Below, piece after piece: positions 3,548-42,323 of a DNA stretch of 43,923 nt. The notes below the pieces were generated by a model. It was not told the DNA's origin. It ran no database searches and worked only from the letters and a program-made list of their open reading frames with translations. The DNA lies in assembly GCA_004297825.1 (NCBI GenBank), contig SCSX01000067.1:1-43923 (forward strand), given 5' to 3'. A program made the translations under genes and the position numbers. Each line of letters begins with the position of its first letter. Within the stretch, counting starts at the first letter, position 1. The DNA is from Spirochaetota bacterium. Its GTDB lineage: Bacteria; Spirochaetota; UBA4802; UBA5368.

Positions 3548-4327
3548 ATGAATTACCTGACATATGCGCGGGAAGAGCGGGAATACCATTCCAGGTTTGC
3601 GCGATATAACCGGAGAAAAAAGGCGTTCCTGAAATGGTATTTCAAGCTTTATCACCGGCTGGAGGTAAGGGGGCTCGATAATATCCCCGAGGGGCCCGCG
3701 CTCATCGTTCCCAACCACAGCGGCGGGTTCGATCTCGATATAATGGCGATCATGTTTTTTGCTCATCCGTCGCGGGAAATAAGCGTGCTCATCGCCCGCG
3801 AATGGCATTTCATTGAAAGTACATGGGGGCGATACTTTGTAGGAGGAGGCATTCCCCTGCGGCTGCGGGGAGGCATACAGTATGATTATATCGATCCCTG
3901 GCTGGTGAAAGGAGGCGCACGCTTCCCCGGCCTGGTGTGCATTTTCCCCGAGGGCGGATCAGGGACCGTGTGGAACCGCGGGAAGCTTAAGCCTTTTTAT
4001 CCTGGCGTTGTCAGGCTTGCGCTTCGGTATCAAGTACCCATAGTTCCTGTCGCGATGATCGGGTTCGACCTCGCCTCGCCTATCGTCATGGAAATCGCGC
4101 GGGACCACCGTACACCTGACGTTGTCATGCCGCCCTTCACCCTTCCCGTGAAAACACGAATCGAATTCGGACGACCCTTCGAACTGGAGTCCCTTTATGG
4201 AAGGGAACTTGGTAGAAAAGATGAATTTCGTATCGCGAATGAAATCGTTCGCCCAAGGGTGGCCGAGGTTATTCATCGGCACCGCGCGGTCTCGCTCGTA
4301 CCATGGGATGGGGGTCAGAGCCGTTAG
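3548..4327 (+). CDS. PlsC-type 1-acyl-glycerol-3-phosphate acyltransferase family protein
   Basis: This 259-residue acyltransferase of the LPLAT superfamily probably transfers a fatty acyl chain to lysophosphatidate or a related lipid at the inner membrane. The catalytic HX4D motif is visible as HSGGFD (H57, D62). FPEGGSGT (133-140) supplies the phosphate-binding motif, and an isolated PIVP motif follows. There is no clear N-terminal membrane anchor. ATG 3548 is preferred over ATG 3542 because the GGGGG at 3537-3541 abuts the latter and sits 6 bases from the former. The last residues (DGGQSR) are encoded by REP-like repeat copy 3, so an insertion has probably replaced the natural C-terminus. 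The substrate cannot be told from sequence. Confidence 0.85.
   Translation: MNYLTYAREEREYHSRFARYNRRKKAFLKWYFKLYHRLEVRGLDNIPEGPALIVPNHSGGFDLDIMAIMFFAHPSREISVLIAREWHFIESTWGRYFVGGGIPLRLRGGIQYDYIDPWLVKGGARFPGLVCIFPEGGSGTVWNRGKLKPFYPGVVRLALRYQVPIVPVAMIGFDLASPIVMEIARDHRTPDVVMPPFTLPVKTRIEFGRPFELESLYGRELGRKDEFRIANEIVRPRVAEVIHRHRAVSLVPWDGGQSR
4311..4322 (+). repeat. REP-like repeat, copy 3, forming the 3' end of the acyltransferase gene
   Basis: GGGGTCAGAGCC overlaps the last codons of the acyltransferase, which stops at the TAG just after it. It lies 21 bp from copy 4 in the same orientation. Confidence 0.8.
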
Positions 4328-4342
4328 TCTTAAAATTTATCG

Positions 4343-4354
4343 GGGGTCAGAGCC
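4343..4354 (+). repeat. REP-like repeat, copy 4
   Basis: GGGGTCAGAGCC lies 69 bp upstream of the RAYT start. With copy 3 it forms the left flank of the transposase gene, and copy 5 is on the right. Confidence 0.8.
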
Positions 4355-4422
4355 ATTTTTGTTCCGTTTTCCGAGCCTGTATTCGTAAAGATAAGCGGAG
4401 CACAAAAAATGGAGCAGGCCCA

Positions 4423-5067
4423 ATGCCCAGACCGCATCGACGATGTCTTCCGAATACAACTTATCATGTCTATTCCCGGTGCATAGAATGGAAAACCCTT
4501 CTCACAGAAGATAGTGCGAAGGACATGATGATTTTCACTCTACGACGCACCCAGCGGAAATATCGATTTGAATTGATATTCTACCAGATCATGGACAGCC
4601 ATTTTCACCTGGTAGTCAGGACACTCCACGGGGGAGCCACAATCTCCCGCATCATGCAGTATTTCAAGGCACGCTACGCGGAGTCCTTCAATCGGGCGGC
4701 GAAGCGGATAGGCCCCTTCTGGAATGAAAGATTCAAAGATACGATTGTTGAAGAGCACTACCGGTCGCGCGACGAGGTATTGGGAATGCTTTGGTACCTT
4801 GCTTATAACCCGGTTAGGCATAAAAAGGAAAAAGATCCTCGGGGCTATCGGTATGGAGCGGTCAATTGTTACCTTGATGACAAATTCAGGACGCTGGTAG
4901 AGATCACGCACCATGCCGCATTCACTGGGCTGGGAAGGTCAATGGGAGAACGGATCAGAAAATTTCAGGAATTTGAGGGGATTTATTTCAATTACTATGA
5001 CGGGGTCAGAGCCCGTAAGGCCTGTAAAAACAGGCGATGGGTTCGAATACAATATTCGAGGGAATAA
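4423..5067 (+). CDS. REP-associated tyrosine transposase (RAYT), Y1/IS200-like
   Basis: This 214-residue protein belongs to the TnpA_REP/Y1 HUH-transposase family, which nicks single-stranded DNA at hairpins and is thought to mobilise REP elements. It starts MPRPHRRCLPNTTYHVYSRC, which is typical of the family. The HUH motif is HFH (60-62), and the catalytic tyrosine is probably Y125 in WYLAYNPVR, the conserved YxxxNPVR block. ATG 4423 is chosen for its fit to the family N-terminus and a GGAG about 9 bases upstream; the frame is open further upstream. The C-terminal GVRAR is encoded by repeat copy 5. The gene looks intact. RAYTs are usually single-copy and domesticated, and the five nearby GGGGTCAGAGCC repeats are its likely substrate (inference). 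Confidence 0.9.
   Translation: MPRPHRRCLPNTTYHVYSRCIEWKTLLTEDSAKDMMIFTLRRTQRKYRFELIFYQIMDSHFHLVVRTLHGGATISRIMQYFKARYAESFNRAAKRIGPFWNERFKDTIVEEHYRSRDEVLGMLWYLAYNPVRHKKEKDPRGYRYGAVNCYLDDKFRTLVEITHHAAFTGLGRSMGERIRKFQEFEGIYFNYYDGVRARKACKNRRWVRIQYSRE
5002..5014 (+). repeat. REP-like repeat, copy 5, inside the RAYT 3' end
   Basis: GGGGTCAGAGCCC is read in frame as GVRA near the transposase C-terminus. A small hairpin, CCTGT-AAAA-ACAGG (5021-5034), follows directly, still within the coding sequence. REP-type elements often pair a tetranucleotide guide with such a hairpin. Confidence 0.8.
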
Positions 5068-15084: not shown

Positions 15085-17406
15085 ATGAGTGAAAAAATCC
15101 CGGCCCCCGCGGCACATGACAAAAAACGGGCGGAAGAAAAACAATCCCGGCTGTCCGTCCTCAAGGCAAAGCTTATGTCGTTCCTGAACGACGTATACCT
15201 GGGTGAAAAAACCTACAACAAGATCACGGGAAAAATACTGAATGTGATCAAGATTTTCATTGTCTCGACGCGCAAGTTCATGCTGGACGACTGTCTCACC
15301 AAGGCCTCGGCGATTGCGTACACGACGGTGGTCTCCCTGATCCCCACGCTCACCGTGGGACTCACCTTTTATTCCATATTCGCGGGCGCCGGCGCGAAAA
15401 AGGAAGACCTCTTCCGCATGATGACCCAGTACATGACCGAGCACAACATCAAGCTCAATATCGACACCATCATAGAATCGATATCCTCCCTCATCGACAA
15501 CGCCGCGCAGATAGGGGGCATCGGCGCCGTGGTCATGGTCTTCACCGCGACCGCCGTGCTGCGCTCACTCGAGAGCTCGCTCAACAGCATCTGGCAGGTG
15601 GAGCGCCAGCGGCCCGTGTTTCTCAAGATCATCTATTACTGGGCCGCGCTCACCCTGGGCCCGCTCATGCTCATAGCCGGGACCACGGCCGCCACGCAGG
15701 TATCCGCGTTCTTCTCCGCGCCCAATTACAATGCGGCAACCATCGCGCCCGACGGCCGCCTGTGGGTGACCGGGCAGAAATTGAGCATCCAGAACACGGC
15801 CCTGGGCGCCCTCAGCCTCCAGCCCGTCAAGCCGGACCGCTTCGACATGGACAACCAGCGCGTATTCGATTTCGATCCCGCGACGAAGACATTCAAGGAA
15901 CAGGAATTCCGGCTGGAGGAGATGGAGCTTCGTAAACACGAACTCACCGACATCCAGTTTGTCAACAACCGCGGGTGGGTCGTCGGAAAAGGCGGCGTCA
16001 TCTTCACCTCGTATGATCGCGGCAACACATGGCTCCCGGAGAAATGGGGCGGATTTAATTTCAGGGATATCCACATGCTGGACGCGATGCGCGGCTTCAT
16101 CGCCGCCGAGGACGGCTACCTCCTGAAAACGGAGGACGGCGGGAAAAAATGGACCATCCAGGAATTCGGCGGGTTCAACTCAAACCTGAACTCCATAAGC
16201 TTTTATAACACTACCGGGATAATCACCGCCGATCGCGGGGCCCTGATCATAACCACCGACGGGGGAAAGACCTGGGCGCTCGATTACCTGAACGAGGCGA
16301 AACGCAAGAAACGCCCGGTAAGCCTCAACCAGGCCTCGATGCTCTCCGAGCAGAACATCTGGATCGTGGGCGACGAGGGGTTGATACTCAATACCGAAAA
16401 CGGCGGGAAAAAATGGACCGTGTTCAAGTTCCAGGAAAAGAATTACACTGCCGTATATTTCGCGAATAAAACCACGGGCTATATCGGCGGCGAGAAAGGA
16501 ATGTTTATCTATACCGATAACGGGGGCGAGAAATGGACGCGCTCGAATCTCCCCTCGCCCACGGTCAGGCGGTTTGTGCCGGGAGACGGCGGTATCATCG
16601 CGGTGGGTGACGCGGGAATGGTGCTCAAGTCCGTGGATAAGGGTAGCACGTGGCATGGATCCAAAGGCTCAAACGTGGTGGGTTATCTCCTGAACTTCTT
16701 CGCGCCGTTCGTTTTCATCTGGCTCCTCTTCCTCCTGACCTACATCGCGCTTCCCAACATGAAGATTCCGTTCAAGGCGGCTGCGGTAGGCGCCTCGTTC
16801 ACCGGCGCGGTCTGGGTGGGCTTCATCCTGATATTCATCGTCTACGTGAAAAGCTTCGCGACGGGCACGGTTGCCGTGTACGGCGGACTTGCGGCCATTC
16901 CCATATTCCTGCTCCTGGTTTACTCATCGGCCGTGATCATCCTGTACGGCGCGCAGATCGCCTATACGCTCATGCATCCCTTTTCTTACCAGAACCTGAG
17001 ACGGGCGTTCAAGGAAAACAAGGAAACGGCCGTCTATTACGGCATCGCGATCCTTTATACTATTTACCGTAATTTTGAAAAAGGCAAGGGCCCAACCTAT
17101 TTCAAGGACCTGTTGAAGGCGACGGCGAACCAGGCGGACGATATCGATCACTTCAACGCGATCTTCAAGAAGGAAAAGCTCATCATTGAGACGGGAGACG
17201 GGGGTCTCATCCCGTCGACGTCGTCCGGCAATATCAGGCTTTCCGCCGTGATGGACATCATCCAGAGCAGCGACCTGGCGCTCCCGGCGCACGGCACCGA
17301 TTCCCTTAAGCGCTATTTCAGCGACGTATTCAAGACGCTTAAAACTCAGCGCAACGAAACGCTCGGCGACATCACGCTTGAGAAAGTCATAGACGAGGTG
17401 GGCTGA
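15085..17406 (+). CDS. YihY/BrkB family membrane protein with an inserted Asp-box (YCF48/BNR-like) beta-propeller
   Basis: This 773-residue protein is two folds in one chain. Residues ~45-210 and ~527-635 together form the six-helix YihY/BrkB core: helices near 75-100, 140-165 and 178-205, then 528-556, 563-590 and 602-630. Between the third and fourth helices sits a ~310-residue insert. It carries six Asp-box motifs of the S/TxDxGxxW type: YDRGNTW (310-316), EDGGKKW (350-356), TDGGKTW (391-397), ENGGKKW (438-444), DNGGEKW (478-484) and VDKGSTW (517-523), with a further degenerate blade near 216-230. This pattern fits a YCF48/BNR propeller. The helix count puts the insert in the periplasm. 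A C-terminal cytoplasmic domain (~640-773) follows. AGGAG lies 7 bases before the ATG. The gene ends 7 bp from the convergent TonB-like gene. Function is unknown; YihY proteins are no longer accepted as RNase BN. Confidence 0.85.
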   Translation: MSEKIPAPAAHDKKRAEEKQSRLSVLKAKLMSFLNDVYLGEKTYNKITGKILNVIKIFIVSTRKFMLDDCLTKASAIAYTTVVSLIPTLTVGLTFYSIFAGAGAKKEDLFRMMTQYMTEHNIKLNIDTIIESISSLIDNAAQIGGIGAVVMVFTATAVLRSLESSLNSIWQVERQRPVFLKIIYYWAALTLGPLMLIAGTTAATQVSAFFSAPNYNAATIAPDGRLWVTGQKLSIQNTALGALSLQPVKPDRFDMDNQRVFDFDPATKTFKEQEFRLEEMELRKHELTDIQFVNNRGWVVGKGGVIFTSYDRGNTWLPEKWGGFNFRDIHMLDAMRGFIAAEDGYLLKTEDGGKKWTIQEFGGFNSNLNSISFYNTTGIITADRGALIITTDGGKTWALDYLNEAKRKKRPVSLNQASMLSEQNIWIVGDEGLILNTENGGKKWTVFKFQEKNYTAVYFANKTTGYIGGEKGMFIYTDNGGEKWTRSNLPSPTVRRFVPGDGGIIAVGDAGMVLKSVDKGSTWHGSKGSNVVGYLLNFFAPFVFIWLLFLLTYIALPNMKIPFKAAAVGASFTGAVWVGFILIFIVYVKSFATGTVAVYGGLAAIPIFLLLVYSSAVIILYGAQIAYTLMHPFSYQNLRRAFKENKETAVYYGIAILYTIYRNFEKGKGPTYFKDLLKATANQADDIDHFNAIFKKEKLIIETGDGGLIPSTSSGNIRLSAVMDIIQSSDLALPAHGTDSLKRYFSDVFKTLKTQRNETLGDITLEKVIDEVG

Positions 17407-17413
17407 TACGCTA

Positions 17414-18301
17414 TCAGTTGATAATGTAAAGGAACACGCAGGGGATGACGATCCTTTCCCCCTTGATGTCCTCGGGGATGGGACCGAATTCTTTCGAGAT
17501 GGTGACGGAATCCAGGCAGGAGGAATCAAGCGAGGCGGTTCCCAGGGAGTCCACGATCTGGACGTGCTGAACCTCCCCGGCGCGGTTCAGCACGAAAAAG
17601 AGGCGCACCTCCTGGTTGGGTATCGCCATGATGCGCAGCCGCCCCGGCGTGTAGGTGCCCGTTATCGGGTCAAACCCGCTGATCACGGAATTGGCGAGCA
17701 TGGGCGGGAACCAGTTCGAACCGATCCTGTCCATCATTGCCTTGAAGTACCTGAAATGGGGGTACTTCTTCGTATTGAACGAGAAACTGCCGCTGTTGGT
17801 GAAGAAGAGCGCGTTGTCGCGGGAGTAGCCCAGCTTGTCGGGAACGCGCGTGAGATCGGTCGAGCCCTCGTCACCCAGCACCCCGCCCCGCGTTACCGGG
17901 GCAATCGATATCTGAACCTCGCTGTCTTCGCCGGTGAGGGCCTCGGAAAGGTCCTGCGAGGACGCCCTGCCCATCGTGCCCGATTTACCCCTGCCGCGCT
18001 GGAGGACGAAGTCCCTTGAATTGTTGAGCCAGGTGTCTCCCTGGTTAAGGCTCATGTATCCCTTTGCCGAAGAATCCTTCTCGCCAAGCATCGTGGTATC
18101 GTTCACGACCTGCTGCTCGTCCTCGTTTATGTTGGCGATGATCTGGCGCCCGCCAAAGAGCTGGCTCGCCGCGTGGTGTTTCGCCAGCTCGTCGAGCCTC
18201 TGGTGATAGTCCGGGAGAACGACCGCGAGGATTCCCATCGCGTGCAGGCACATCGACACCAGGACGACGAGCGTGAATTTTATTTCGACCGGTCTCTCCA
18301 T
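17414..18301 (-). CDS. TonB-like protein with one N-terminal membrane anchor
   Basis: This 295-residue protein has a single N-terminal transmembrane helix (about 9-31) and a long, low-complexity middle with no Pro-rich linker. The C-terminal ~90 residues (RLRIMAIPNQEVRLFFVLNR ... VQIVDSLGTASLDSSCLDSV) follow the beta-alpha-beta pattern of TonB C-terminal domains. It probably spans the periplasm and contacts outer-membrane proteins. No ExbB/ExbD genes are nearby. ATG 18301 is chosen because the transmembrane helix then sits close to the N-terminus and GGAAG and GAGG lie upstream; ATG 18334 is an alternative. The start overlaps the end of the upstream GlmU-like gene by 22 bases. Confidence 0.7.
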   Translation of the reverse strand: MERPVEIKFTLVVLVSMCLHAMGILAVVLPDYHQRLDELAKHHAASQLFGGRQIIANINEDEQQVVNDTTMLGEKDSSAKGYMSLNQGDTWLNNSRDFVLQRGRGKSGTMGRASSQDLSEALTGEDSEVQISIAPVTRGGVLGDEGSTDLTRVPDKLGYSRDNALFFTNSGSFSFNTKKYPHFRYFKAMMDRIGSNWFPPMLANSVISGFDPITGTYTPGRLRIMAIPNQEVRLFFVLNRAGEVQHVQIVDSLGTASLDSSCLDSVTISKEFGPIPEDIKGERIVIPCVFLYIIN

Positions 18302-19560
18302 TTCCTCACTTCCGATTTCCTCGATTCCTCGCATACGCCGTAGAGCCGTTCGAGCACCCCGCTATGCGCCCGGCTCAGGACCGCACCCCTGCGCCCCATG
18401 ATCACGCCACAGGTATTCAGCGTGGTCTGGAGGGGCTCGCCCTCCGAGAGCTGGTTGTTCATGAACCAGGCGAACGAGGGTACGTAGCGCGGCGCCATGT
18501 ACCCGGCGTGCACCAGCATGCACCCCACGCCGATCGAGCTCCCGGTGTTTATAAGGGTGCCGATGCTCGTCCGCGTGAAATCGCCTATAAAGCAGCCCAC
18601 CTTCAGTTTCTCGGTCTGGATGCGCCTTCCCTGGAGATTGACCTTCACGGTGGAATAGCTGTTCTTGAGATCGCTGTTCGTGGTGAGCGCGCCCAAATTG
18701 ACCCATTCTCCCACGTAGGAATGCCCCAGGAATCCGTCATGGTACTTGTTGCATCGAGCATGCATAATGCACTGCTCCACTTCACCCCCGACCCGGCAGG
18801 CGTCCCCGATCGTGGTCCCCCCGCGCAGCCTGGCGCCGAGTATCACGCAATCACGCCCGATGCTGCAGGGACCCTCGATACGGGTGAACGCATGAATCCT
18901 GGTTCCAGCCCCGATGATCACTGGACCGGAACCCGCATCGATGAACGTCATCGGGTCGATTTGGACCCCCTCAGCTATGTAGATTTGACCGGGATCGCCC
19001 GTGATTGTTACACCCGGGGGGACCGGGGCGCGATACAGTCCCGACCCCCGGACCTGCGCCGCGTCTCGCGTGATGAGCGCGGGATTCTCGTCCACGAGCG
19101 TCCAGATATAGTCGATAAGTTTAAGCCGGGGATTCGCCGCTTCGACGCATCCCTTCGCGTTCAGCAGACGCCGGCCGAGGACAGGCGTATCGGCCCCCAG
19201 CCCTGCCGGAACGACGTTGGCCGCGAGAACGGCGCCGTTGCTTTTTACGATCGTGTTTTCGGGGATCGAAAATACCCAGGGGTCGGGTATGAGCGCGCAA
19301 TTGAGAAACAGCACCGATTCCCGCGACGCGATGATTGAGGGCTCGTTGATGCGGCAGGAGGGCAGCAATTCCCTTGCAAGCGGGACGAGCTCTTCCCTGG
19401 TATAATACCAGGTTTCGGAGCCGGGAGCGTTCCCCGCGATACACGCGTCCCAGCGCTCGCGCAGGGAAAAACAGCCGGCGCGGAGCTCCCATATCGGCCG
19501 CGTAAGGCTGAGCGGATAAAAATTGTCGTGGTTCCCGTCTTCGAATAACACGATGTGCAT
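18280..19560 (-). CDS. GlmU-like sugar nucleotidyltransferase/acyltransferase family protein
   Basis: This 426-residue protein has an N-terminal domain (MHIVLFEDGNHDNFYPLSLT) of the degenerate nucleotidyltransferase type found in GlmU-related proteins. The canonical LAAGxGTRM motif of GlmU is missing. The C-terminal half (~195-400) is a left-handed beta-helix of hexapeptide repeats (VIIGAGTRIHAFTRIEG, CSIGRDCVILGARLRGG, TSIGTLINTGSSIGVG). An NKYHDGFLGHSYVGEWVNLG block resembles the acetyltransferase site. It may make or modify an activated sugar for the envelope. The start is backed by GGGAGAG. The last codons overlap the TonB-like gene, so the two are probably co-transcribed. Confidence 0.85.
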   Translation of the reverse strand: MHIVLFEDGNHDNFYPLSLTRPIWELRAGCFSLRERWDACIAGNAPGSETWYYTREELVPLARELLPSCRINEPSIIASRESVLFLNCALIPDPWVFSIPENTIVKSNGAVLAANVVPAGLGADTPVLGRRLLNAKGCVEAANPRLKLIDYIWTLVDENPALITRDAAQVRGSGLYRAPVPPGVTITGDPGQIYIAEGVQIDPMTFIDAGSGPVIIGAGTRIHAFTRIEGPCSIGRDCVILGARLRGGTTIGDACRVGGEVEQCIMHARCNKYHDGFLGHSYVGEWVNLGALTTNSDLKNSYSTVKVNLQGRRIQTEKLKVGCFIGDFTRTSIGTLINTGSSIGVGCMLVHAGYMAPRYVPSFAWFMNNQLSEGEPLQTTLNTCGVIMGRRGAVLSRAHSGVLERLYGVCEESRKSEVRKWRDRSK

Positions 19561-31994: not shown

Positions 31995-33029
31995 TTATTT
32001 ACGATTTTTTACCTTCAGCACGATTGCGCCTGCAATCGCGATCGCCGCCGCGGCGACGAAATTGAGTATGTGGTTTCCGAACCCGGTGGTGATCGCGTCC
32101 TGTTCGCCCATGCCCACGAGCATGAAGCCGCCGGTCCAGCCCACCTCGAGCGTTCCGAAGCTCCCGAAGCTGTTTATGGGGAGCACGTTGGTGAGCACCG
32201 CGCCCGTCGCGCCCGCAACCGATTGCATGAAGTTAATATCGACGCCGAAGGCGTGGATCGTCACGAAGGACATTGAATACAGCGCGCCCCACACCAGCAG
32301 GCTCGTAAAGGCGAGTCCCGGGATGAAACGTTTCGTGTCGAAGCCGGAGAACTCATCTTCCACCTCGATCACCTTCGCCAGAACCTTTTTCACGATCGAT
32401 TTTTCGCGCAGGCGAAGCACGGCCATCGTGCGTTCAAAGACGGAGCGCGAAAGTATGACGATCCATTTGAGGTAGAACAGGGAAACGATGGATAACGCGA
32501 GAAATCCGATCCCGACCGCAAGCAGGGCTACTGAGGTCTGCCTTCCGTAATGGATGATTATCGAGCATACGAAGAATGCGGCGACGATGATAAAATCGAA
32601 TATGCGGGTGACCAGGAGCGCGTGCAGCCCGCGGGAAATATCGGCCCCCGCCAATTTCTTCAAATAGTACACGAAGGTGAGCTCGCCCGTCCTCGCGGGG
32701 AGTATCTGGTTGAAGAAATTATGGTAGCTCGTGATCGCGAAGAGCTTGAATTGCGGAACCTCGAGATCTTTGAGCAAAACGGCGAAGCGGATCGACTTGA
32801 ACAGGTTCGAAAACACGTATATAACGCAGGCAAGGCCAAGGAGCCGGTAATCGGCATCGCGGAAGGTCCGCGCGGTCTCTCCCAGGTCGATGCGCCGGAG
32901 CAGAAAGTAAACGAGCCCCGCGGACAGTGCGAAAAACACTACGGTCCGGGGATTGAGAATCCGCTTCCTCCTTTCGCGGATTATTTCGTCCGCGGATTCT
33001 GGTGCGTGGTTCGTTGTAGTATCTTTCAT
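31995..33029 (-). CDS. Lysylphosphatidylglycerol-synthase-type membrane domain protein (flippase-like)
   Basis: This 344-residue integral membrane protein has about eight transmembrane helices and the PARTGELTFVYYLKK motif of the LPG_synthase_TM/YbhN (UPF0104) family. These domains are thought to move lipid-linked groups across the membrane or to stabilise glycosyltransferases. The N-terminus (1-25) is hydrophilic. A 203-bp gap that is A/T-richer than its neighbours separates it from the upstream methyltransferase. It lies in a glycan locus, so a role in glycolipid handling is plausible. Confidence 0.85.
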   Translation of the reverse strand: MKDTTTNHAPESADEIIRERRKRILNPRTVVFFALSAGLVYFLLRRIDLGETARTFRDADYRLLGLACVIYVFSNLFKSIRFAVLLKDLEVPQFKLFAITSYHNFFNQILPARTGELTFVYYLKKLAGADISRGLHALLVTRIFDFIIVAAFFVCSIIIHYGRQTSVALLAVGIGFLALSIVSLFYLKWIVILSRSVFERTMAVLRLREKSIVKKVLAKVIEVEDEFSGFDTKRFIPGLAFTSLLVWGALYSMSFVTIHAFGVDINFMQSVAGATGAVLTNVLPINSFGSFGTLEVGWTGGFMLVGMGEQDAITTGFGNHILNFVAAAAIAIAGAIVLKVKNRK

Positions 33030-33232
33030 GGGGTTATTTTATTTGAATAATTGCAGTCGTTTAATATTCGATATGGCCATGCGCGAATGAAATGCCCTAC
33101 ATTGAGGTTTCAAATTCCAGAAGACAAGCGATTGATTTATTGCCATCTTTACCGGGTAATTCACCTTGAACTCGGGCATTTAACGCGTTTTAAAGGCGCT
33201 GCGTCGAAATAATGACGGCCTGCGCGGCCGGC

Positions 33233-34102
33233 CTAGGTTTTGCGGAACAGGGCGTAGAGATTGATCGTCTCAAGGTCTTCCCGGTTTTTTTCCGCGAACT
33301 TCTTGTGGAGTTTACAGGAATCCAGATTGAGTCCCGTCCCCCTTTCGACATCAAGCAATTTAAACCCGTACCTGCCCGCAAAATCCATGTAATCATCCGA
33401 CCTGAGCCTGTTCGTGAAGGAATATCCCTCCTTCGTGAGCAGCGTATTCCATACCCGGTCCGAATATTTCAGAAACTTGAAGGGCTTGTCGAAATTATAG
33501 TGATCGGCCAGGGAAATGTAATGATACATGACCCCCCGCGGTTTTAAAATCCTGTTCATCTCCCTGAAGGCGGTATCCATGTCGGTCACGTGCTCGAGCA
33601 CGCCTGCGCTCACTATGATATCGACCGAGCCGTCCGGAACGTCCTTCATGTCTTCCACGGAATTAGGCGCGTAAAAAAACCTGTCTGCCCTGGGCCTGAA
33701 ATCCGACTCGAAAAACCGCATCGCGTCCTTCTTCACCTTCTCCTTGAGGTACTCGATATCCTCGCTGATATTGGTCCTGTCCCAGCGAGGATACTTGTCG
33801 ACCAGTATGATTTTTCTAGCCGATTTAAGCAGGAAGCCGATGCCCATGATCAGCGACGTGCCCGGACCGATCTCCAGGACTACGGAATTCTTGATTGGTA
33901 TCCGCGCGCGCTTCAGCGCAGCGACGATGCGGCAGTGCATCGCGTAGCAGTAATTTCCGCTGCGCGCGTATAGTTTATTGAATAGGATGGCACGAATAGC
34001 GTCACGGAGAAACGGCACGCGGGAATACATCACCCTGATTAAAAAGTCGAACCGGTTGAACATGGACAGCAGCAATGACGATTTGATCATTTTTTCACGC
34101 AT
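33233..34102 (-). CDS. SAM-dependent methyltransferase, class I
   Basis: This 289-residue protein has SAM-binding motif I EIGPGTS (77-83) and the acidic ribose-binding residue in IILVDKYPRWD. Motif IV-like VDIIVSAGVLEHVTD and post-motif EMNRILKPRGVMYHYISL are typical of the Methyltransf_11 type. The N-terminal ~65 residues are extra helices. In a polysaccharide locus such enzymes often methylate a sugar or a lipid carrier; the acceptor is unknown. It lies between GT2 and the flippase-like gene. Confidence 0.88.
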   Translation of the reverse strand: MREKMIKSSLLLSMFNRFDFLIRVMYSRVPFLRDAIRAILFNKLYARSGNYCYAMHCRIVAALKRARIPIKNSVVLEIGPGTSLIMGIGFLLKSARKIILVDKYPRWDRTNISEDIEYLKEKVKKDAMRFFESDFRPRADRFFYAPNSVEDMKDVPDGSVDIIVSAGVLEHVTDMDTAFREMNRILKPRGVMYHYISLADHYNFDKPFKFLKYSDRVWNTLLTKEGYSFTNRLRSDDYMDFAGRYGFKLLDVERGTGLNLDSCKLHKKFAEKNREDLETINLYALFRKT

Positions 34103-34188
34103 AGTACCTCTGCCAATATGTGCATCCGGCGCGTTGAAGCGCTTTATTATTCAATGCGAGACGGCCCTTTCGCAGGGGAAATGACCGT

Positions 34189-35109
34189 TTACTGTTTGCG
34201 CGTCTTGACGATGAGCTCGGCGATGAGCCCGAAGAAAAAGGTCTGCAGGCCGAATACCGAGAGGCCCAGCAGCAGGTTCACGTGCACCACCGGCTTGTCG
34301 TCCAGTCCCATGAAATATAGCGCAAGTTCAGTCGCGAAAAGCAAAAATGCGGGCGCTAAAAACAGGAGTCCTATTGACCCGAATATCTTCATGGGTTCCA
34401 CGGACACCAGGACCATGAGTATCTGCCGCGAGACCTTGAAGGGGTACTTGAGCGATACGAAAGATTTACCGGTAATGCGCCTCTGGAAGGAGACCGAGAC
34501 GTGGGCGAAACGCAATCCACGGTGGTAGGCGTCCAGGAGCACCTGCTGCGTGTAGTTGTAATTGCCGGGCAGGTAAAAGTTTTCCAGGTAGTCCTTGTTG
34601 ACCGCGAATATGCCCGGCTGGCTGTCTTTAAGAGGCCACCCGGTGAGAAAGCGCATGAGCCCGGTGAACATGATGTTCCCGATCCGGCGCACGAACGGCA
34701 TCTTGTAGGCGATTTTTTCGAAGCGGTTGCCGTACACCACGTCGGCCTCGTCGTCCTGGATAGGCTGTATCATGGGGAAGATGTCGTTGGGGTCGTGCTG
34801 GAGATCGGCGTCGAACTTGACGACGATGTCTGCGCCGTCCTTGCGCGCGCTTCCGAGACCGGTGCGTATCGCCGCCCCCAGTCCCCGGTTGATCTTGTGG
34901 CGCACCACTTTGTCCGCGCCCGCGGCCTGTGCGAGCTTGCCCGTATCGTCGGAAGAGCCGTCGTCGATCACGTAGACCAGGTGGTCGACGCCCATTTTCG
35001 CGAAAGGCGCCCGGACGGTCTTGAGCGCCTTGATGGTTGCCTCGATGCGTTCGGCCTCGTTGTAGGCCGGGACTATTACTATGAGCTTCGTGCGTGCTTT
35101 TCTTGCCAT
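34189..35109 (-). CDS. Family 2 glycosyltransferase, dolichol-phosphate-mannose-synthase-like
   Basis: This 306-residue GT-A enzyme has VIVPAYNEAERI (11-22), VIDDGSSDDT (48-57) and the metal-binding FDADLQHD (99-106). Two C-terminal transmembrane segments lie around 240-300. This layout matches polyprenyl-phosphate sugar transferases that charge undecaprenyl phosphate with one sugar. The two GT-C enzymes beside it would use such a donor in the periplasm. It probably belongs to the same operon as its neighbours. Confidence 0.92.
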   Translation of the reverse strand: MARKARTKLIVIVPAYNEAERIEATIKALKTVRAPFAKMGVDHLVYVIDDGSSDDTGKLAQAAGADKVVRHKINRGLGAAIRTGLGSARKDGADIVVKFDADLQHDPNDIFPMIQPIQDDEADVVYGNRFEKIAYKMPFVRRIGNIMFTGLMRFLTGWPLKDSQPGIFAVNKDYLENFYLPGNYNYTQQVLLDAYHRGLRFAHVSVSFQRRITGKSFVSLKYPFKVSRQILMVLVSVEPMKIFGSIGLLFLAPAFLLFATELALYFMGLDDKPVVHVNLLLGLSVFGLQTFFFGLIAELIVKTRKQ

Positions 35110-35173
35110 TATCGGTTCCCGTGAATGGAGTTTAGGTCAGATAGACAGACTATGCGCGGACGCATTTTGAAAA

Positions 35174-36883
35174 TCAAGGAATAAATTCGTAGACCCCGCT
35201 CACGATGCCGCCCCTGGTCTCGAATTTTTCAACCTGCCGGAAATGCCCGGTCGATTCCCCCCGATCGCGTATTTCTTTAAAGAGGTGGGCCTTCCTGTCA
35301 ATCGCGTTTTTATCCCCGTATTGGAGCCTGCGGACGTAAAAATCGTCCACGAACACGTACGTGACCTTTTTTTCCGCGAGCTCGGATACCAGGTCGTCGA
35401 GCTTCAGGCTCCTGAGCCGCAGCGATCCCAGGAAACGGGATTCGTCCATGTCGGAGTAATAGCGCGACACCACCGTTTCGGCGATGAGCATGCGATCGCC
35501 GGGGCGCGCGTGCGCGGAGAACCACTCGGCGGCCTTCCGGAACTCGACGCGCTTCCATCCGTAATGATCCATGGCGTTGACCCCGAACGAGACCGCCAGG
35601 AGCGCCGCCGCGGCGGCCGTACAGAACAGGAACGCCCGAGCGCGGGTCGTATCGGACCCCCCGAATTTAACGATGATAACGGCCCAGAGCGCGACGAAAC
35701 AGCACGCGGCGACCGTGAGCGGGAGGCCCAGCCCCGGGACAAGTACCAGCCCCCTTCCCATCGCAAGGGCCGTTATGAGACATGCCGCGATTGCGAGGGC
35801 CCTGAATGCCGTGGCGCGCCTGATGAACATTCTTTTAATCCAGGGTGCAAGCCCGTTTTCGATGCCGTAAAACATGAAAAGCACAAGCAGCCAAAGAATG
35901 GGGGTGACATAGCGCTCCTTGGTGTTCTGGTAGATCATGTGGATGGCGAGGTAGCCGGCGAAGAAGATGAGGAGCGGCGCGTTTTCCCTGAGCCGGTTCC
36001 TCGCGATGACCGCGACGCCCCATATCGCCGATACGACCGTGAACAGGGTGAACGCGACGACGACAGGGTAATAAGCCGCCTTCACGATGGTCGAGCCCGA
36101 GAAATACGCGCCCGTCGCCATCCACGGGACGAAGCCGGCGAGGATCAGGAAACAGTCGACGATGTAGCGATAGGTCGCCGGGCCCCGCTGCGCGATTTCC
36201 TTCACGTACGGATTACCGTATTCCCCGGAGTTGACAAGGCTGAGCGCGAACCAGGCGGCCACGCCCGAAACCGCGCACAGGCCGAGCAGGATGGCGCGTA
36301 ACCGGCGCCGGTTTTCGAAAAAATCGCGGTACATCGCCGCCGGGATGGCGAACACGGAATCCCATTTCACCGCCGACGCGAGAAAGGCCCCCGCGTAGGA
36401 TGCCGGCGATCCCCTGAGCGCGAGAAGCACCGTCCCCGCGGTGAGGAGCGCGAGTGCCATCTCAAGCTCCGCGTTCACCGCCGTGAAGACCGAGTACACG
36501 TTCATGACAAGGTACGCGAGCGCGGCGAGCGTCATGCGCGGCGAGAGGAATCTCTTGAACACGGCGTGCGCGACCAGCAGGAAGGGAACGTACAATAACA
36601 GGTTCAGTATCATCGCCGTGAGATAGATGACGTCATGCGCGGGCAGCGGGTTGATCTTCGCGCCCAGTGCGACCAGGAGCGGGTAGATCGGCAGGATCTT
36701 GAAGTTCTTCCCGGGAAAGTCGCCCGCCATGTACTCGGCGATGCGAGGGCGAAAGTTGCCGATATAATCCTCGGAGGGCGTCTGGAAATAATTGAAATAG
36801 AGCGCGGCGTACAGCGTCCCCGCGAGGATGATGCAGGCGAGGACCAGCCGGTAGGCACGCGAACCGAATTCCAGCACGTTCAT
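35174..36883 (-). CDS. Multi-pass membrane glycosyltransferase (GT-C type)
   Basis: This 569-residue protein has about 10-12 transmembrane helices and a first extracytoplasmic loop with acidic residues (SEDYIGNFRPRIAEYM, 37-52) as in GT39/GT83-type enzymes. The C-terminal ~120 residues form a soluble domain (GDRMLIAETVVSRYYSDMD). It likely moves a sugar from a polyprenyl-phosphate donor to a glycan or protein on the outer face of the inner membrane. The start lies 1 bp beyond the stop of the hydrolase gene, so the two are co-transcribed. Confidence 0.85.
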   Translation of the reverse strand: MNVLEFGSRAYRLVLACIILAGTLYAALYFNYFQTPSEDYIGNFRPRIAEYMAGDFPGKNFKILPIYPLLVALGAKINPLPAHDVIYLTAMILNLLLYVPFLLVAHAVFKRFLSPRMTLAALAYLVMNVYSVFTAVNAELEMALALLTAGTVLLALRGSPASYAGAFLASAVKWDSVFAIPAAMYRDFFENRRRLRAILLGLCAVSGVAAWFALSLVNSGEYGNPYVKEIAQRGPATYRYIVDCFLILAGFVPWMATGAYFSGSTIVKAAYYPVVVAFTLFTVVSAIWGVAVIARNRLRENAPLLIFFAGYLAIHMIYQNTKERYVTPILWLLVLFMFYGIENGLAPWIKRMFIRRATAFRALAIAACLITALAMGRGLVLVPGLGLPLTVAACCFVALWAVIIVKFGGSDTTRARAFLFCTAAAAALLAVSFGVNAMDHYGWKRVEFRKAAEWFSAHARPGDRMLIAETVVSRYYSDMDESRFLGSLRLRSLKLDDLVSELAEKKVTYVFVDDFYVRRLQYGDKNAIDRKAHLFKEIRDRGESTGHFRQVEKFETRGGIVSGVYEFIP

Positions 36884-36884
36884 C

Positions 36885-37898
36885 CTACCTGAATCGCTGG
36901 ACCATCTCGTCCACGATCCTGACCAGAAGTTCGGGCTCGTCGAAATGGATGTTTTTCATGCTCTTCGCCGACACGATCCGTTCTGCGCGCGGCGAGAGCT
37001 TGAGGTACCGGTCGTACGCGTCGCGCGTGATCGTTTCGATCTTGCGCGCCTGGTCGACCGGTACGCCCCAGAACATCATGTCGTCGTGGTAGAGTTTGGG
37101 CGAGTGCTCGATGACGACGAGCGGGATTTTGGGAAAGGGGCCCGCCTCGGCCAGCTTCGCGCTCCCCTCCCGGAAGCCCTTGCGGTATTCCGAAACCATC
37201 GTCTCGTAGAAGCGCGACTGGGACCAGGCCTCGACCAGGTCCTGTTTTATGACGGAAGGATACGTCCGGTAGGGCACGATCGAGAGCGCGCGCATGGCGC
37301 CCATGGCCGCGAACGCGCGTCCCATCTGGAGCCCGGGAGTCCTGTCGATGAAATTGTTGTAGACCCCGGGATCAAGCTCTTTTTTAAAGCGCTCGAAATT
37401 CAGGGGGAGCGGATCGACGAGCACCACGCCCACCACCGCGAAGGGATCCGTGCGCGCGAAATACTCCGCGTACAGCGCGCCGATATCGTGCCCCACGATC
37501 ACGTACGGGGGCGTGATCCCCTCCTTTTCGAGCGCGAACTTCAGCTCATTCACGATCGCCTCGGGCGCGCGCGCGCCCTGCGCGTCGCCGCTGTGCCCGT
37601 ACCCGGCACGTTCGTACAGAATCACACGCGCGCGCTTCGAAAGCGCGTCCTGCACCCCCGCCCATTCCGCGGCGGTCGATCCCAGGCCGGTCTCGATTAT
37701 CACCGCCGGGCTCGCGGTGCCTTTTTCGATGATGCAGAGTTTCGTCGTCCCCGCGTCGACGAGTTTCCCATTGACGGGGAGCGCCGCGCGCCACTTCGAG
37801 GAAAGAATCGAATTTTTTACGGCGGCGTAGCCTGTGAGGAGCGCCAGCAGACCCACGACAACGGCCGCGAATATTCCGATATATTTTAACAATTTCAT
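36885..37898 (-). CDS. Membrane-anchored alpha/beta-hydrolase with Asp at the nucleophile position
   Basis: This 337-residue protein has an N-terminal transmembrane helix (5-27) and an alpha/beta-hydrolase domain. The oxyanion-hole part is VIIETGLGSTAAEW, and VILYERAGYGHS follows. The nucleophile elbow reads VIVGHDIGALYA: D138 stands where the usual serine of GHSxG would be. Asp is the nucleophile in haloalkane dehalogenases and epoxide hydrolases. The general-base His is probably in MKNIHFDEPEL near 321. The codon is GAT in the sequence. The gene lies inside the glycosyltransferase run but its role there is unclear. Confidence 0.88.
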   Translation of the reverse strand: MKLLKYIGIFAAVVVGLLALLTGYAAVKNSILSSKWRAALPVNGKLVDAGTTKLCIIEKGTASPAVIIETGLGSTAAEWAGVQDALSKRARVILYERAGYGHSGDAQGARAPEAIVNELKFALEKEGITPPYVIVGHDIGALYAEYFARTDPFAVVGVVLVDPLPLNFERFKKELDPGVYNNFIDRTPGLQMGRAFAAMGAMRALSIVPYRTYPSVIKQDLVEAWSQSRFYETMVSEYRKGFREGSAKLAEAGPFPKIPLVVIEHSPKLYHDDMMFWGVPVDQARKIETITRDAYDRYLKLSPRAERIVSAKSMKNIHFDEPELLVRIVDEMVQRFR

Positions 37899-37971
37899 AA
37901 AGCTTTCTCCATCTGGACGTTTAACGATAGCCCGCCCCGCCGATACGGCGGCAGCGCCGGAAATGCACGCT

Positions 37972-39669
37972 TTACTTCTTTTCCGCCCCCAGGCGCCTGT
38001 ATACGAGAATATGGTCCGGCGAGATCTTCTGGGCCGCGGGGACGCGGAAAAAGGGCACGTCCAGGTCGAAGCGCTTTTCCAACCGGTAGTTCAGCCGGTC
38101 GGCGAAAAGGTCGTCAAGGAATTCCGGCATGCCCGATTTGCTGTCGCGCTCCATGCGGATGGTCGTCATCCTCCCCGTATCCAGCTCGGGCTTTCTCAAG
38201 AAGCGCTGGTAATATTTGGAAGTGAGCACGAGGTAGTCGGGCCTGCGCTTCTCGATATCGCCCACATCATTTTTCACCCGGTACGAGCGGCTTCCCCCGG
38301 GAAACCGCGGCAGATACTGGAGATACGAGTAGTACTCGATGACGGCGCCTTTCGTCATGTGCGTGTTCATCCACGCCTCCGCGTCGTAGCGCACGTCTCC
38401 GAGCATCGTGGCGTTGACCGAAAGCCCCTCGTACAGCGCGAACGCGCCGACAAGGACCAGCATGACCGATACCGCTTTTTTCCCGAGGCCCGCGGTTTTC
38501 TCGAGAAGGTAATCCGCGGCAAACCCCGCGAAGACGGTTATAAACAGGCTGGTGGGAAGCGAGTAGCGGACCGAGCTCTGGCGTATAACCTGCACGAAAA
38601 ATATCGAGTACGAGAGTGCCGGGAACAGATAGAACAGCTTGAGAAACAGTTCGCGCCCGTCCTTCCTGTACCGATACGCGACCAGCCCCATCCCCGCCAC
38701 CGACAGCACGAACAGCGGCACCGTCATCGCGTCGAGCATCATGAACTTGATCGAGTCGCGCCACAGGGCGTAGATACCGTCGATCGCGTACGAATACTGG
38801 ATGTTCCGCACCCCGCCCTCTTTCGTGAGGTGCTCGAACCGCGCGACGAAGCCGTCGGGATTGAAGAGGACGCTCTGCGCCAGGAGCGAGCTCACCACGA
38901 GCGCCCCCGCGCCGATCCACAATTTTTTACGGAGGAGGACGTCCCTGATGGACAGGGCTTTATCGGACCTCGCAACGACCTGGTAAACCACCATGAAGAG
39001 CACGAAGGGCAGGACGAAGATCGCGTACCCCTGGTCCTTTGACCCGTGCGAAAGGCTCGCGGCGACGACACACCAGACGTAATCGCGCAGGCCGTCGTAT
39101 TTCACGATGCGTATCAGGAAGTAGAGCGACACCACCGCCCAGAACACGTATGGCACCTCGACCTTGGCGACGTGCGCGTAATAGTTGAGCGAAATATTGA
39201 ACGAGGCGAGAAGCGCACCGATAAGCGCCGCCCGCTCGCTGAAAAGCTCGCGCGCCCCTAGGTAAAGGAAGTACACCGTGAGAAGGCCCATGGTGACCGA
39301 TACCAGCCTGTCTATGAGAATGAGCCAGGTCGCGAACTCCGCGGACCTCGCGTAGGAGAGGAACTCGTAAAGCCGGAACCCGTCCGGCGAGATGTGCGCG
39401 ATGAATGCGCCGATAACCACCGGGAGGTTCAGCACCGCGAGGATGAGCTGGTGGACGACCGGGTACTTGTTGAAATACCCGAAGGAAAACGCCTTGGACA
39501 GCCCGATAAGCGGGTGGTACGGCGCGAGTGAATCGGTGAGCCAGTCCTCGACGTTGGGAAGCCCCCAGGTGACGCCCACGAGGTAGATCGCCAGGTCGAG
39601 GGCGAGGATGTAGAGGATCGGTTTTTTCAAAGCCGATAAATTGAACCTTCCTGCGAGCCCTTCCAGCAT
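37972..39669 (-). CDS. Multi-pass membrane glycosyltransferase (GT-C, GT39/ArnT-like)
   Basis: This 565-residue protein has about 10-12 transmembrane helices. The first periplasmic loop carries acidic residues (LPNVEDWLTDSLAPYHPL) as in PMT/ArnT enzymes. The rest is hydrophobic with a C-terminal soluble domain of about 130 residues (residues 425-565). It is probably a polyprenyl-phosphate-sugar-dependent transferase and the first gene of the minus-strand series that ends at 30.7 kb. A divergent promoter region separates it from the GT4 gene. Confidence 0.85.
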   Translation of the reverse strand: MLEGLAGRFNLSALKKPILYILALDLAIYLVGVTWGLPNVEDWLTDSLAPYHPLIGLSKAFSFGYFNKYPVVHQLILAVLNLPVVIGAFIAHISPDGFRLYEFLSYARSAEFATWLILIDRLVSVTMGLLTVYFLYLGARELFSERAALIGALLASFNISLNYYAHVAKVEVPYVFWAVVSLYFLIRIVKYDGLRDYVWCVVAASLSHGSKDQGYAIFVLPFVLFMVVYQVVARSDKALSIRDVLLRKKLWIGAGALVVSSLLAQSVLFNPDGFVARFEHLTKEGGVRNIQYSYAIDGIYALWRDSIKFMMLDAMTVPLFVLSVAGMGLVAYRYRKDGRELFLKLFYLFPALSYSIFFVQVIRQSSVRYSLPTSLFITVFAGFAADYLLEKTAGLGKKAVSVMLVLVGAFALYEGLSVNATMLGDVRYDAEAWMNTHMTKGAVIEYYSYLQYLPRFPGGSRSYRVKNDVGDIEKRRPDYLVLTSKYYQRFLRKPELDTGRMTTIRMERDSKSGMPEFLDDLFADRLNYRLEKRFDLDVPFFRVPAAQKISPDHILVYRRLGAEKK

Positions 39670-39734
39670 ATTCTTTCACCGCACCGGGATTAGTGTTCGT
39701 CCGATACCACGACGGTCCGAAACGAGTATTCTGT

Positions 39735-39761
39735 TTGACAATTTCGCCCCCAGGGTAAACT
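39735..39761 (+). promoter_or_regulatory. Candidate promoter of the GT4 gene
   Basis: TTGACA (39735-39740) and, after 15 bases, TAAACT (39756-39761). The spacing is shorter than ideal. An inverted repeat lies immediately downstream. Confidence 0.35.
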
Positions 39762-39783
39762 AAATCAAGAATAATCTTGATTT
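39762..39783. repeat. Inverted repeat in the GT4 leader (possible operator)
   Basis: Nine-base arms AAATCAAGA and TCTTGATTT surround ATAA. It lies directly after the promoter candidate and 18 bp before the GTG start, where a bound repressor or an RNA hairpin could block expression. Confidence 0.5.
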
Positions 39784-39801
39784 GACCACGGACGGGTACC
39801 A

Positions 39802-40893
39802 GTGAAAATTGCGATCATATTCCCCAAGGATTCCGAGGCGCTTTTCGACAGGAACTCCACAAGGACATTCGGCGGGGCGAACGTCCAGCTTTTCATGATC
39901 GCGCGGGAACTCGCGAATCATAAGGATATCGCCACGTTCTCGCTGATCCCGAATTACCCTGTCATTGACTTTGACGATGCGGACAAATTTTCACTCGTGA
40001 AGACCTTCAATGAGTCCGATTCGATGCCGGTGAAGGTGCTCAAGTATCACCGGGCGATAAGAAGACTGAAGCCGGATGTGATTATCCAGAGGGGGCTTAC
40101 CCTGGAGTCGTGCCTGTTCGCGGTATATTGCCGGTTGTTCGGGATAAAGTTCGTGTTCATGCTGGCGCACGATGTTGAGAGCGAGGGGAGGTACCAAAAA
40201 AACCGCAGTAAATGTACTCTCTTCTTTTTGCTATTAAAATTCACAAACCTTATTATCGCGCAAAACGAATTGGAGCGGGATAATGTGAAAAAGGAGCAAC
40301 CTTCCGCATGCGTCGCCATTCTCAAGAAAGGGTTGGATATCGGCAAAGTCAGGAAGTCTCGGAATAAAGACTACGACTGCATCTGGATTGCGCGTTGTGA
40401 ACAATGGAAAAATCCGGAGGTCTTCCTTGATCTTGCCGCGGCGAACCCAAAGTTTCGCTTTTGCATGATTTGCTCGAAAGTGGCCGGGCACGAGGTTTAT
40501 TTCGAAGAAGTACGAAAAAGGGCCCGCGGAATCAGAAACGTGACATTCTTCGAATTCGTCAAATACGACGATGTCTACACGCTGCTCGCGAAGAGCAGAG
40601 TCTTCTGCATCACCTCGTCCTTCGAGGGGGATTGGCCCATGACTGTGTTAGAGGCCACGGCGACGGGGCTGCCGGTGCTTTCATATAAATTGAATTATGG
40701 GGAATTGTTAAATAATTACGAGGCGGGGTATTATTGTGAAGGGAGCATGAAATTGATTTATTCTTATTTTACAAAATTACTTACTGACAGCAGAATGTAC
40801 CACCGTAAATCGAATCGGGCCTTTTCTTACGCATACGACCTCCACAGCATCGAAAGCAACGTCGCCGCATTGATCAATTTATTAATATCTTGA
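39802..40893 (+). CDS. Family 4 glycosyltransferase
   Basis: This 363-residue GT-B enzyme has an N-terminal acceptor domain with FGGANVQLFMIARELA (23-38) and a C-terminal donor domain with SSFEGDWPMTVLEATATGLP, where E275 and E284 match the E-x-E donor motif with one extra residue. The start is GTG. It is the only plus-strand gene in the glycan cluster. Base composition falls along this gene towards the A/T-rich genes that follow. The sugar cannot be assigned. A convergent gene ends 35 bp beyond its stop. Confidence 0.9.
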   Translation: MKIAIIFPKDSEALFDRNSTRTFGGANVQLFMIARELANHKDIATFSLIPNYPVIDFDDADKFSLVKTFNESDSMPVKVLKYHRAIRRLKPDVIIQRGLTLESCLFAVYCRLFGIKFVFMLAHDVESEGRYQKNRSKCTLFFLLLKFTNLIIAQNELERDNVKKEQPSACVAILKKGLDIGKVRKSRNKDYDCIWIARCEQWKNPEVFLDLAAANPKFRFCMICSKVAGHEVYFEEVRKRARGIRNVTFFEFVKYDDVYTLLAKSRVFCITSSFEGDWPMTVLEATATGLPVLSYKLNYGELLNNYEAGYYCEGSMKLIYSYFTKLLTDSRMYHRKSNRAFSYAYDLHSIESNVAALINLLIS

Positions 40894-40928
40894 AACAATG
40901 AGCAGACAGACTCTTCCGTGCCTGTAGG

Positions 40929-42269
40929 TTATTTCAAATACTCGATTATTCTTTTATCTGACTTGATTTTCACCGCTTTCCCGACCTCGATAAACTTTTT
41001 CATATGTTCTATTCCCGGCAGATCGATCAACAAAATGGTGCAGTCAAAGTTCAGTGCCTCGAATATAACCGTGGACGATAATCCGATCAGATACCGCGAT
41101 TCCGCGAGGAGTTGGTAAAGGGGGAGTGCGTTATTGTCGATGACTTTTACGTTTACGTACTCAGATAGTCTGACCAAGCTGTCATACTGTCGCCATCTAT
41201 CGTATTCACCCGGATGAAGTTTATAGACTATAGTGTAATCTTTTAAATCTTGAACATTTTGCAAGATGAAATCCGACATCTTCGGTCCCGCAATCCCCTG
41301 GGAAACCACAATGATCTGGTTTTCGTTCTTTTTGACATACCGAAATCCGTCTTTCGTTTTCTGCAAGTGGCGAAAACCATACGGTATAATTCGATCATCG
41401 GTCAGCGGCAGGTCGCACATCTCTCTCCAGAAATCATCCCATATTAAAAGCCTGTCCGGAAAATATTCCAGCGAATTTTTCGACACGGAGGGAAAATGAT
41501 AGCCGAGCGCGAATTCGGAGAATATCCCATGCTGGATTTCCACGGAGGTTATACCCAAATCCCGTGCGGCCTTTATTAGTGGAGCCTCCCCATAACCTAC
41601 CACAAGGTATACCGTACGTGCGCCTTTTTTTCTCAACAGTGCCCGGAGCAGTTTATGTTTTATTTTAAACCGCGATATCTCTTTACTAAAAAGTTTCAGG
41701 AAATCGATGCGTATTTTGAACGTAGAATTTATTTCATTTTGTAATCCAAGCAGGAAATTCTGGTCTGATTTTGTAATTGCGCTTGGGAAGAATATTCCAA
41801 ACAGAGTCGTCATAATCAATATGATATCCAGGTGTTTTCTGTATATTTCGTCCTTAGCATAGTGTCGGTTCATATATGGACGTTCGTATACTTCGAACGC
41901 CCCGCCTTGGCTCAGTAAATCGTCAACGAAGTATTTTGTATGAATATCCACGAACTCGCTGCCAATTTTAATTTTTCTGCCATGGTCGAACACCAGCGTC
42001 TCTATTTTAGCCTTTCCACAATATGGATTGTAGAACAGTATGCTTCGTGCGAAGCTGCGGATTGCTTTGATCCTGTCCAGCGCCGAATCCTTTATCGTAT
42101 GAGGGACTTCGTAGCATCCTGTCTTAATCCCTATCTCAAGGAATACCGGCACCCGTAGGGCCTGCCAGATTTTAACCCCATTGATTTCATGATCCAGCAG
42201 ACCATGTTTACGCTCGAGACGCAACATCTCATCGCGTATCATCTCTATGGTGAAGCGAGTATGTTCCAT
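40929..42269 (-). CDS. Putative capsule/surface polysaccharide biosynthesis protein, GT-B-like
   Basis: This 446-residue cytoplasmic protein has two-domain GT-B features: VYLVVGYGEAPLIKAARDLG then VEIQHGIFSEF (about 240), a YKLHPGEYDRW motif and a GLSSTVIFEALNFD block near the end. The HPxE and SS-x-EAL motifs are those of CDP-glycerol glycerophosphotransferase-like and related surface-glycan enzymes, but the substrate is not clear. The gene is A/T-rich compared with the rest of the window, which suggests horizontal acquisition. It follows the Wzx-type gene on the same strand with a 54-bp gap. Confidence 0.7.
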   Translation of the reverse strand: MEHTRFTIEMIRDEMLRLERKHGLLDHEINGVKIWQALRVPVFLEIGIKTGCYEVPHTIKDSALDRIKAIRSFARSILFYNPYCGKAKIETLVFDHGRKIKIGSEFVDIHTKYFVDDLLSQGGAFEVYERPYMNRHYAKDEIYRKHLDIILIMTTLFGIFFPSAITKSDQNFLLGLQNEINSTFKIRIDFLKLFSKEISRFKIKHKLLRALLRKKGARTVYLVVGYGEAPLIKAARDLGITSVEIQHGIFSEFALGYHFPSVSKNSLEYFPDRLLIWDDFWREMCDLPLTDDRIIPYGFRHLQKTKDGFRYVKKNENQIIVVSQGIAGPKMSDFILQNVQDLKDYTIVYKLHPGEYDRWRQYDSLVRLSEYVNVKVIDNNALPLYQLLAESRYLIGLSSTVIFEALNFDCTILLIDLPGIEHMKKFIEVGKAVKIKSDKRIIEYLK

Positions 42270-42323
42270 TTATTCATACCTGAGCATTTCTCAAGGAATT
42301 TGGTCCATTAATGCCATGAAAAT

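Follow-up and report, generated by a model that had tools for sequence, protein, structure and literature searches.

We know of no agreed function for the YihY/BrkB family, and a search of the open-access literature on the function of YihY/BrkB/UPF0761 returned just annotations, screens and a 2015 predicted structure. Members of the family, which were present in 10 of 14 control genomes, usually have a short loop between helices 3 and 4 (loop 3–4), a feature of their anatomy that lies outside the Pfam definition; the loop spans 10–22 residues in E. coli YihY and in the plain BrkB proteins of Bacteroides and other Spirochaetota. The ER membrane complex (EMC) is known for membrane protein insertion, and EMC1 carries an N-terminal propeller on its extracytosolic side. 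YCF48/HCF136 (PF14870), a soluble lipoprotein factor of photosystem II (PSII), is a seven-bladed Asp-box propeller, and cryo-EM shows that, while PSII is being assembled, YCF48 binds D1 on its lumenal face (PMC10403576). A YCF48-related protein also occurs together with an MMPL/RND protein in the ‘nanopod’ cluster, which has been detected by proteomics and for which hydrophobe transport has been proposed (PMC13101534).

In the window, by which we mean the whole 43,923-nt stretch of Spirochaetota DNA that was analysed, the gene at 15085–17406 (+) encodes a BrkB/YihY core that is split between TM3 and TM4 by a YCF48-type propeller of ~320 residues. The fusion shares with E. coli YihY (PF03631/TIGR00765) core halves that score above the cut-off, six hydrophobic segments and the conserved core residues, but the propeller stands where YihY has a loop of 15 residues, and a cytosolic winged-helix-like domain is present in addition to what the YihY/BrkB family has. 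With YCF48/HCF136, its best match in both structure and sequence, the fusion shares the seven-bladed Asp-box propeller and an extracytoplasmic location, predicted in the case of the fusion; however, here the propeller belongs to a multi-pass membrane protein, whereas YCF48/HCF136 is a soluble lipoprotein, and these bacteria are not expected to have a photosystem. The nanopod-type pairs likewise link a YCF48-type propeller to an inner-membrane transporter-like protein, but in them propeller and transporter are encoded separately and the transporter family is unrelated, whereas the fusion is a single polypeptide with a BrkB core. The EMC1 propeller is likewise attached to a membrane machine outside the cytosol, but its membrane core differs and a single weak sequence match links it to the fusion, as one relative also matches the Pfam model of the EMC1 N-terminal propeller. 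Both domains are already known. The earlier note, made from the sequence before this analysis, knew of no description of such a fusion, and a search of the open-access literature, outside which most subscription journals lie, found no account of the propeller insertion in BrkB, of its single origin in Spirochaetota or of its reversal.

The frame at 15085–17406 is free of internal stops over its 773 codons, as had been read at first, and the PF03631 (Virul_fac_BrkB) model matches the protein in two stretches, the best covering residues 68–209 (E 1.4e-39; 136.7 bits against a Pfam cut-off of 33.7) and the second lying at 16678–16971. Together with hydropathy, these matches place the N-terminal half of the core (TM1–TM3) at residues 46–211 (15220–15717, +) and the C-terminal half (TM4–TM6) at residues 531–631 (16675–16977, +). 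The NCBIfam model TIGR00765 (yihY_not_rbn) scores 112.8 bits against a cut-off of 73.15, and this is the only PF03631 protein found in the genome. Between the two halves, residues 212–530 (15718–16674, +) match PF14870 (PSII_BNR/YCF48) with an E value of 4.6e-24 in the whole protein and 6.1e-26 when the insert is searched alone (91.8 bits against a Pfam cut-off of 27), while the NCBIfam YCF48 equivalog PRK13684 is matched at 93.6 bits, below its cut-off of 326. The initial description of a YihY core whose two halves flank an insert was correct but incomplete, since the protein also has a tail of ~140 residues (632–773; 16978–17403, +), predicted to be cytosolic and similar to an Rrf2-type winged helix.

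By hydropathy, three hydrophobic regions precede the insert and three follow it; none lies inside, where the largest 19-residue mean is 1.01. The N-terminus has 14 K/R against 6 D/E, and loops 2–3 and 4–5 are short and basic. As these charges favour an N-in orientation, the propeller is predicted from hydropathy and charge to lie on the periplasmic side, in agreement with the topology first proposed. AF2 of the whole protein, run with three sequences, did not model the core (mean pLDDT 46.6); its helices agree with the six segments at low confidence. A sequence search of the PDB returned no solved structure related to the YihY/BrkB core.

The insert carries six copies of [ST]x[DN]xGxxW, at residues 309, 349, 390, 437, 477 and 516 with spacings of 40, 41, 47, 40 and 39. 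These are SYDRGNTW (residues 309–316; 16009–16032, +), TEDGGKKW (349–356; 16129–16152, +), TTDGGKTW (390–397; 16252–16275, +), TENGGKKW (437–444; 16393–16416, +), TDNGGEKW (477–484; 16513–16536, +) and SVDKGSTW (516–523; 16630–16653, +). The earlier note had counted six evenly spaced S/TxDxGxxW motifs; the number and the regular spacing (39–47) stand, but four of the six follow the strict form and the other two have Asn in place of Asp. Shuffling residues 212–531 20,000 times gave a mean motif count of 0.02 and a maximum of 2. AF2 of residues 206–532 alone, run with two relatives, gave a model (pLDDT 76; pTM 0.80) whose 28 strands fall into seven four-stranded groups, so that the insert is modelled as a complete seven-bladed propeller. 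The six Asp-boxes sit in blades 2 to 7, one in each, as the count of six repeats would have it; the blade that this count missed is blade 1 (residues 214–273; 15724–15903, +), which has no Asp-box and instead shows a conserved D254-x-x-N257-Q258 motif. Foldseek of the insert model against the PDB returned YCF48/HCF136 for all of the best 12 matches, with a TM score of about 0.7. A profile of 24 inserts searched against PDB sequences also placed YCF48 first (7e-33), followed by designed propellers (2e-9) and natural glycosidases (from 4e-6). The VIA-align ranking did not separate the propeller families, and YCF48 chains were absent from its top 50. Together with the PF14870 match, the models bear out a YCF48-type propeller between helices 3 and 4.

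Full-length homologues are found across the whole order of the window at 41–60% identity, including two near relatives that are MAGs labelled Spirochaetes bacterium, and in further Spirochaetota families at about 20–31% identity. The insert-bearing proteins that we extracted number 54, of which two are partial, and two further loci repeat records from the same genomes. In all 54, the loop 3–4 segment is 327–398 residues long and its position is identical, and PF14870 was matched independently by 36 of the 43 that were scanned. They come from 11 Spirochaetota family groups (f1, f2, f4–f7, f11, f22, f34, f38 and f41), with a twelfth, f3, represented by full-length matches in the searches, so that the survey of lineages that had been suggested at the outset reveals a trait of a large clade. 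In a tree built from core columns only, the insert-bearing proteins form one clade (FastTree local support 0.998), for which a single ancient insertion in the ancestor followed by vertical descent would be the simplest reading; a tree of the inserts alone recovers the main groups. The distances of core and insert correlate at 0.93, as expected from shared descent alone, which argues against domain swapping and does not in itself demonstrate an interaction. No BrkB–propeller fusion was present among 199 Bacillota genomes, no place in the plasmid set covered 80% of the fused query, and the insert had no match in the phage set. A stand-alone YCF48 paralogue was considered as the donor of the insert, and none was found in this genome.

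Other departures from the usual architecture were seen in relatives. Four Brachyspira-like, AT-rich genomes (G118, G114, G053 and G076; loci L061, L062, L064 and L065, respectively) encode BrkB proteins with a normal loop 3–4 and an insert of roughly 100–150 residues in loop 5–6, predicted to be periplasmic. We considered whether the extra length in L061–L065 was the same propeller and rejected it, as it is located after helix 5 and has no Asp-boxes; here an outer loop has been enlarged for a second time and independently. In the MAG G039 (locus L066, 3986–6130), the fused gene is broken across three frames, through either pseudogene formation or sequencing errors.

The insert is kept under purifying selection, with dN/dS between close relatives (NG86) of 0.03–0.20 for the insert and 0.01–0.10 for the core, ratios that are rough because dS is high in some pairs. 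In one congener, G032, the syntenic orthologue is 468 aa long, has the same neighbours and joins TM3 to TM4 by 13 residues. It adjoins a propeller-bearing congener in the core tree, the deletion is in frame and at the propeller edges, and no other PF14870 match was found in the G032 genome; by sequence comparison, then, G032 represents a natural, clean loss of the propeller, and at least one secondary loss has occurred in the clade. The core branch of G032 is comparatively long, which may reflect relaxed or changed constraint. In two further congeners, G025 and G033, neither domain was matched, suggesting that the fused gene is dispensable in some close relatives, though both genomes are MAGs.

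Conserved neighbours in the order of the window are S21, RarA and PyrE, as well as a TonB_C protein, an alternative GlmU and EF-G, all of them housekeeping genes or on the opposite strand and none indicating a partner. The TonB C-terminal-type gene at 17414–18334 (−), which is syntenic throughout the order, converges on the fused gene. In one genus, a PAP2 gene lies upstream of the fused gene. In f34 loci, for example L046 (7401–8144, −) and L050 (6791–7492, −), the gene directly upstream on the same strand, a probable operon partner of the fused gene, encodes a protein whose N-terminus bears a hydrophobic segment and which also has an F5/8 type C (NADase_transloc-like) domain; a Wzy_C O-antigen ligase gene is divergent. 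Elsewhere in the window, 31995–43760 holds an envelope glycan cluster with genes for an LPG_synthase_TM protein, a methyltransferase and GT2, PMT-like, GT1 and Wzx-type (Polysacc_synt) proteins, and 4303–5067 (+) encodes an IS200-like (Y1) transposase domain. A promoter scan near the fused gene stayed at chance level and terminator-like sites were barely above it, and the window contains no tRNA genes or Rfam matches.

Among the possible roles, we tentatively favour an inner-membrane, transporter-like core with a periplasmic docking propeller fused in cis. The substrate that the BrkB core would move or flip would be an envelope compound of hydrophobic or lipid-like nature. The propeller, as a permanently attached docking module above the outer face of the core, would hold on to a partner protein or guide the substrate toward one. 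The model for such docking is YCF48 on D1, together with stand-alone YCF48-related proteins that may serve co-encoded MMPL/RND transporters. In a Pseudomonas plasmid, a stand-alone YCF48-related gene adjoins an MMPL/RND gene with a 4-nt overlap, and an Azoarcus plasmid has the gene order DUF1329–DUF1302–RND–YCF48. The stand-alone genes and the MMPL/RND genes that they adjoin lie at 3783–7243 in L117 and 4411–7801 in L119. Such pairs are possibly a two-gene version of the same idea, by an analogy drawn from gene neighbourhood. The position of YCF48 on the lumenal face, these gene pairs and the envelope-gene neighbours of relatives are the reasons why we prefer docking. Against it count the lack of an established YihY/BrkB function, which makes transport by the core putative, the neighbours in the window's order, which name no partner, and the close relatives without the gene. 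As the in-frame loss in G032 shows the core persisting alone, it is more probable that the propeller is an accessory, serving the choice of partner or efficiency, than that it is the core engine.

It is possible, though we consider it doubtful, that the protein is instead an assembly or insertion factor, in which the propeller would bind nascent periplasmic segments of a membrane complex and the BrkB core would serve as the membrane platform. YCF48 and HCF136 are the closest relatives in both fold and sequence, YCF48 is seen on D1 during PSII assembly, and the match of one relative to the EMC1 propeller model points in the same direction. However, the photosystem that YCF48 serves is not expected here, the Arg patch by which it binds D1 has no clear equivalent in the insert (the register between repeats being ambiguous), and loss of the gene in some close relatives is unexpected for a core factor.

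A transmembrane sensor, in which the propeller would sense a periplasmic signal, the core relay it and the tail act on DNA or protein, appears unlikely. Its best argument is the tail, in which no Pfam family exceeds the threshold at residues 632–773 but whose profile from 12 relatives matches the Rrf2-family regulator 4cic in the PDB at E 1.3e-4 over nearly its full length (positions 22–143 of 144), making a winged-helix-like fold plausible and DNA binding putative. The Brachyspira-like BrkB of L065 matches the Pfam Rrf2 model at 2.0e-8, above the cut-off; the tail profile compared with a profile of the Brachyspira-like tails was not significant by probability. The pairing of tail and propeller is not specific, however, since plain BrkB proteins without a propeller (about 400–450 aa) are long enough for such a tail, and it is not a strict coupling either, since most f34 members (about 620–700 aa) keep the propeller and have no tail.

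Asp-box propellers are common in glycosidases, and a membrane-anchored glycan-binding or sialidase-like propeller would agree with the lower-scoring matches that the PDB and NCBIfam searches gave for sialidases, GH74 and the F510_1955 glycosylhydrolase family. We regard this as improbable, as these matches rank far below YCF48 (4e-6 or weaker against 7e-33), F510_1955 reaches 61.5 bits against a cut-off of 175, and the conserved residues of the insert are mainly Gly, Trp and Asp with a structural role in the blades, together with D254/N257/Q258. An assembly or sequencing chimera, which the earlier note had listed among the grounds for refutation as far as assembly is concerned, is refuted by the same junctions in 54 proteins of independent genomes, their single clade and the equal GC3 of core and insert, and nothing was found in its favour.

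Returning to the docking propeller, its position in an outer loop hints that YihY/BrkB works with an extramembrane partner, and the insertion site predicts which face of the core meets it. The propeller offers a purifiable bait, for which the propeller-less orthologue of G032 is a natural control from the same genus. A broader proposal, which we consider rather unlikely at present, is that, in the periplasm, propellers of the YCF48 type serve generally as adaptors for inner-membrane transporters of hydrophobes or lipids, and that one such propeller is hard-wired into BrkB here. If so, BrkB/YihY would itself be such a transporter, providing a first handle on a widespread orphan family. The fusion connects the envelope biology of non-photosynthetic bacteria with a propeller family that is known above all from photosynthesis.
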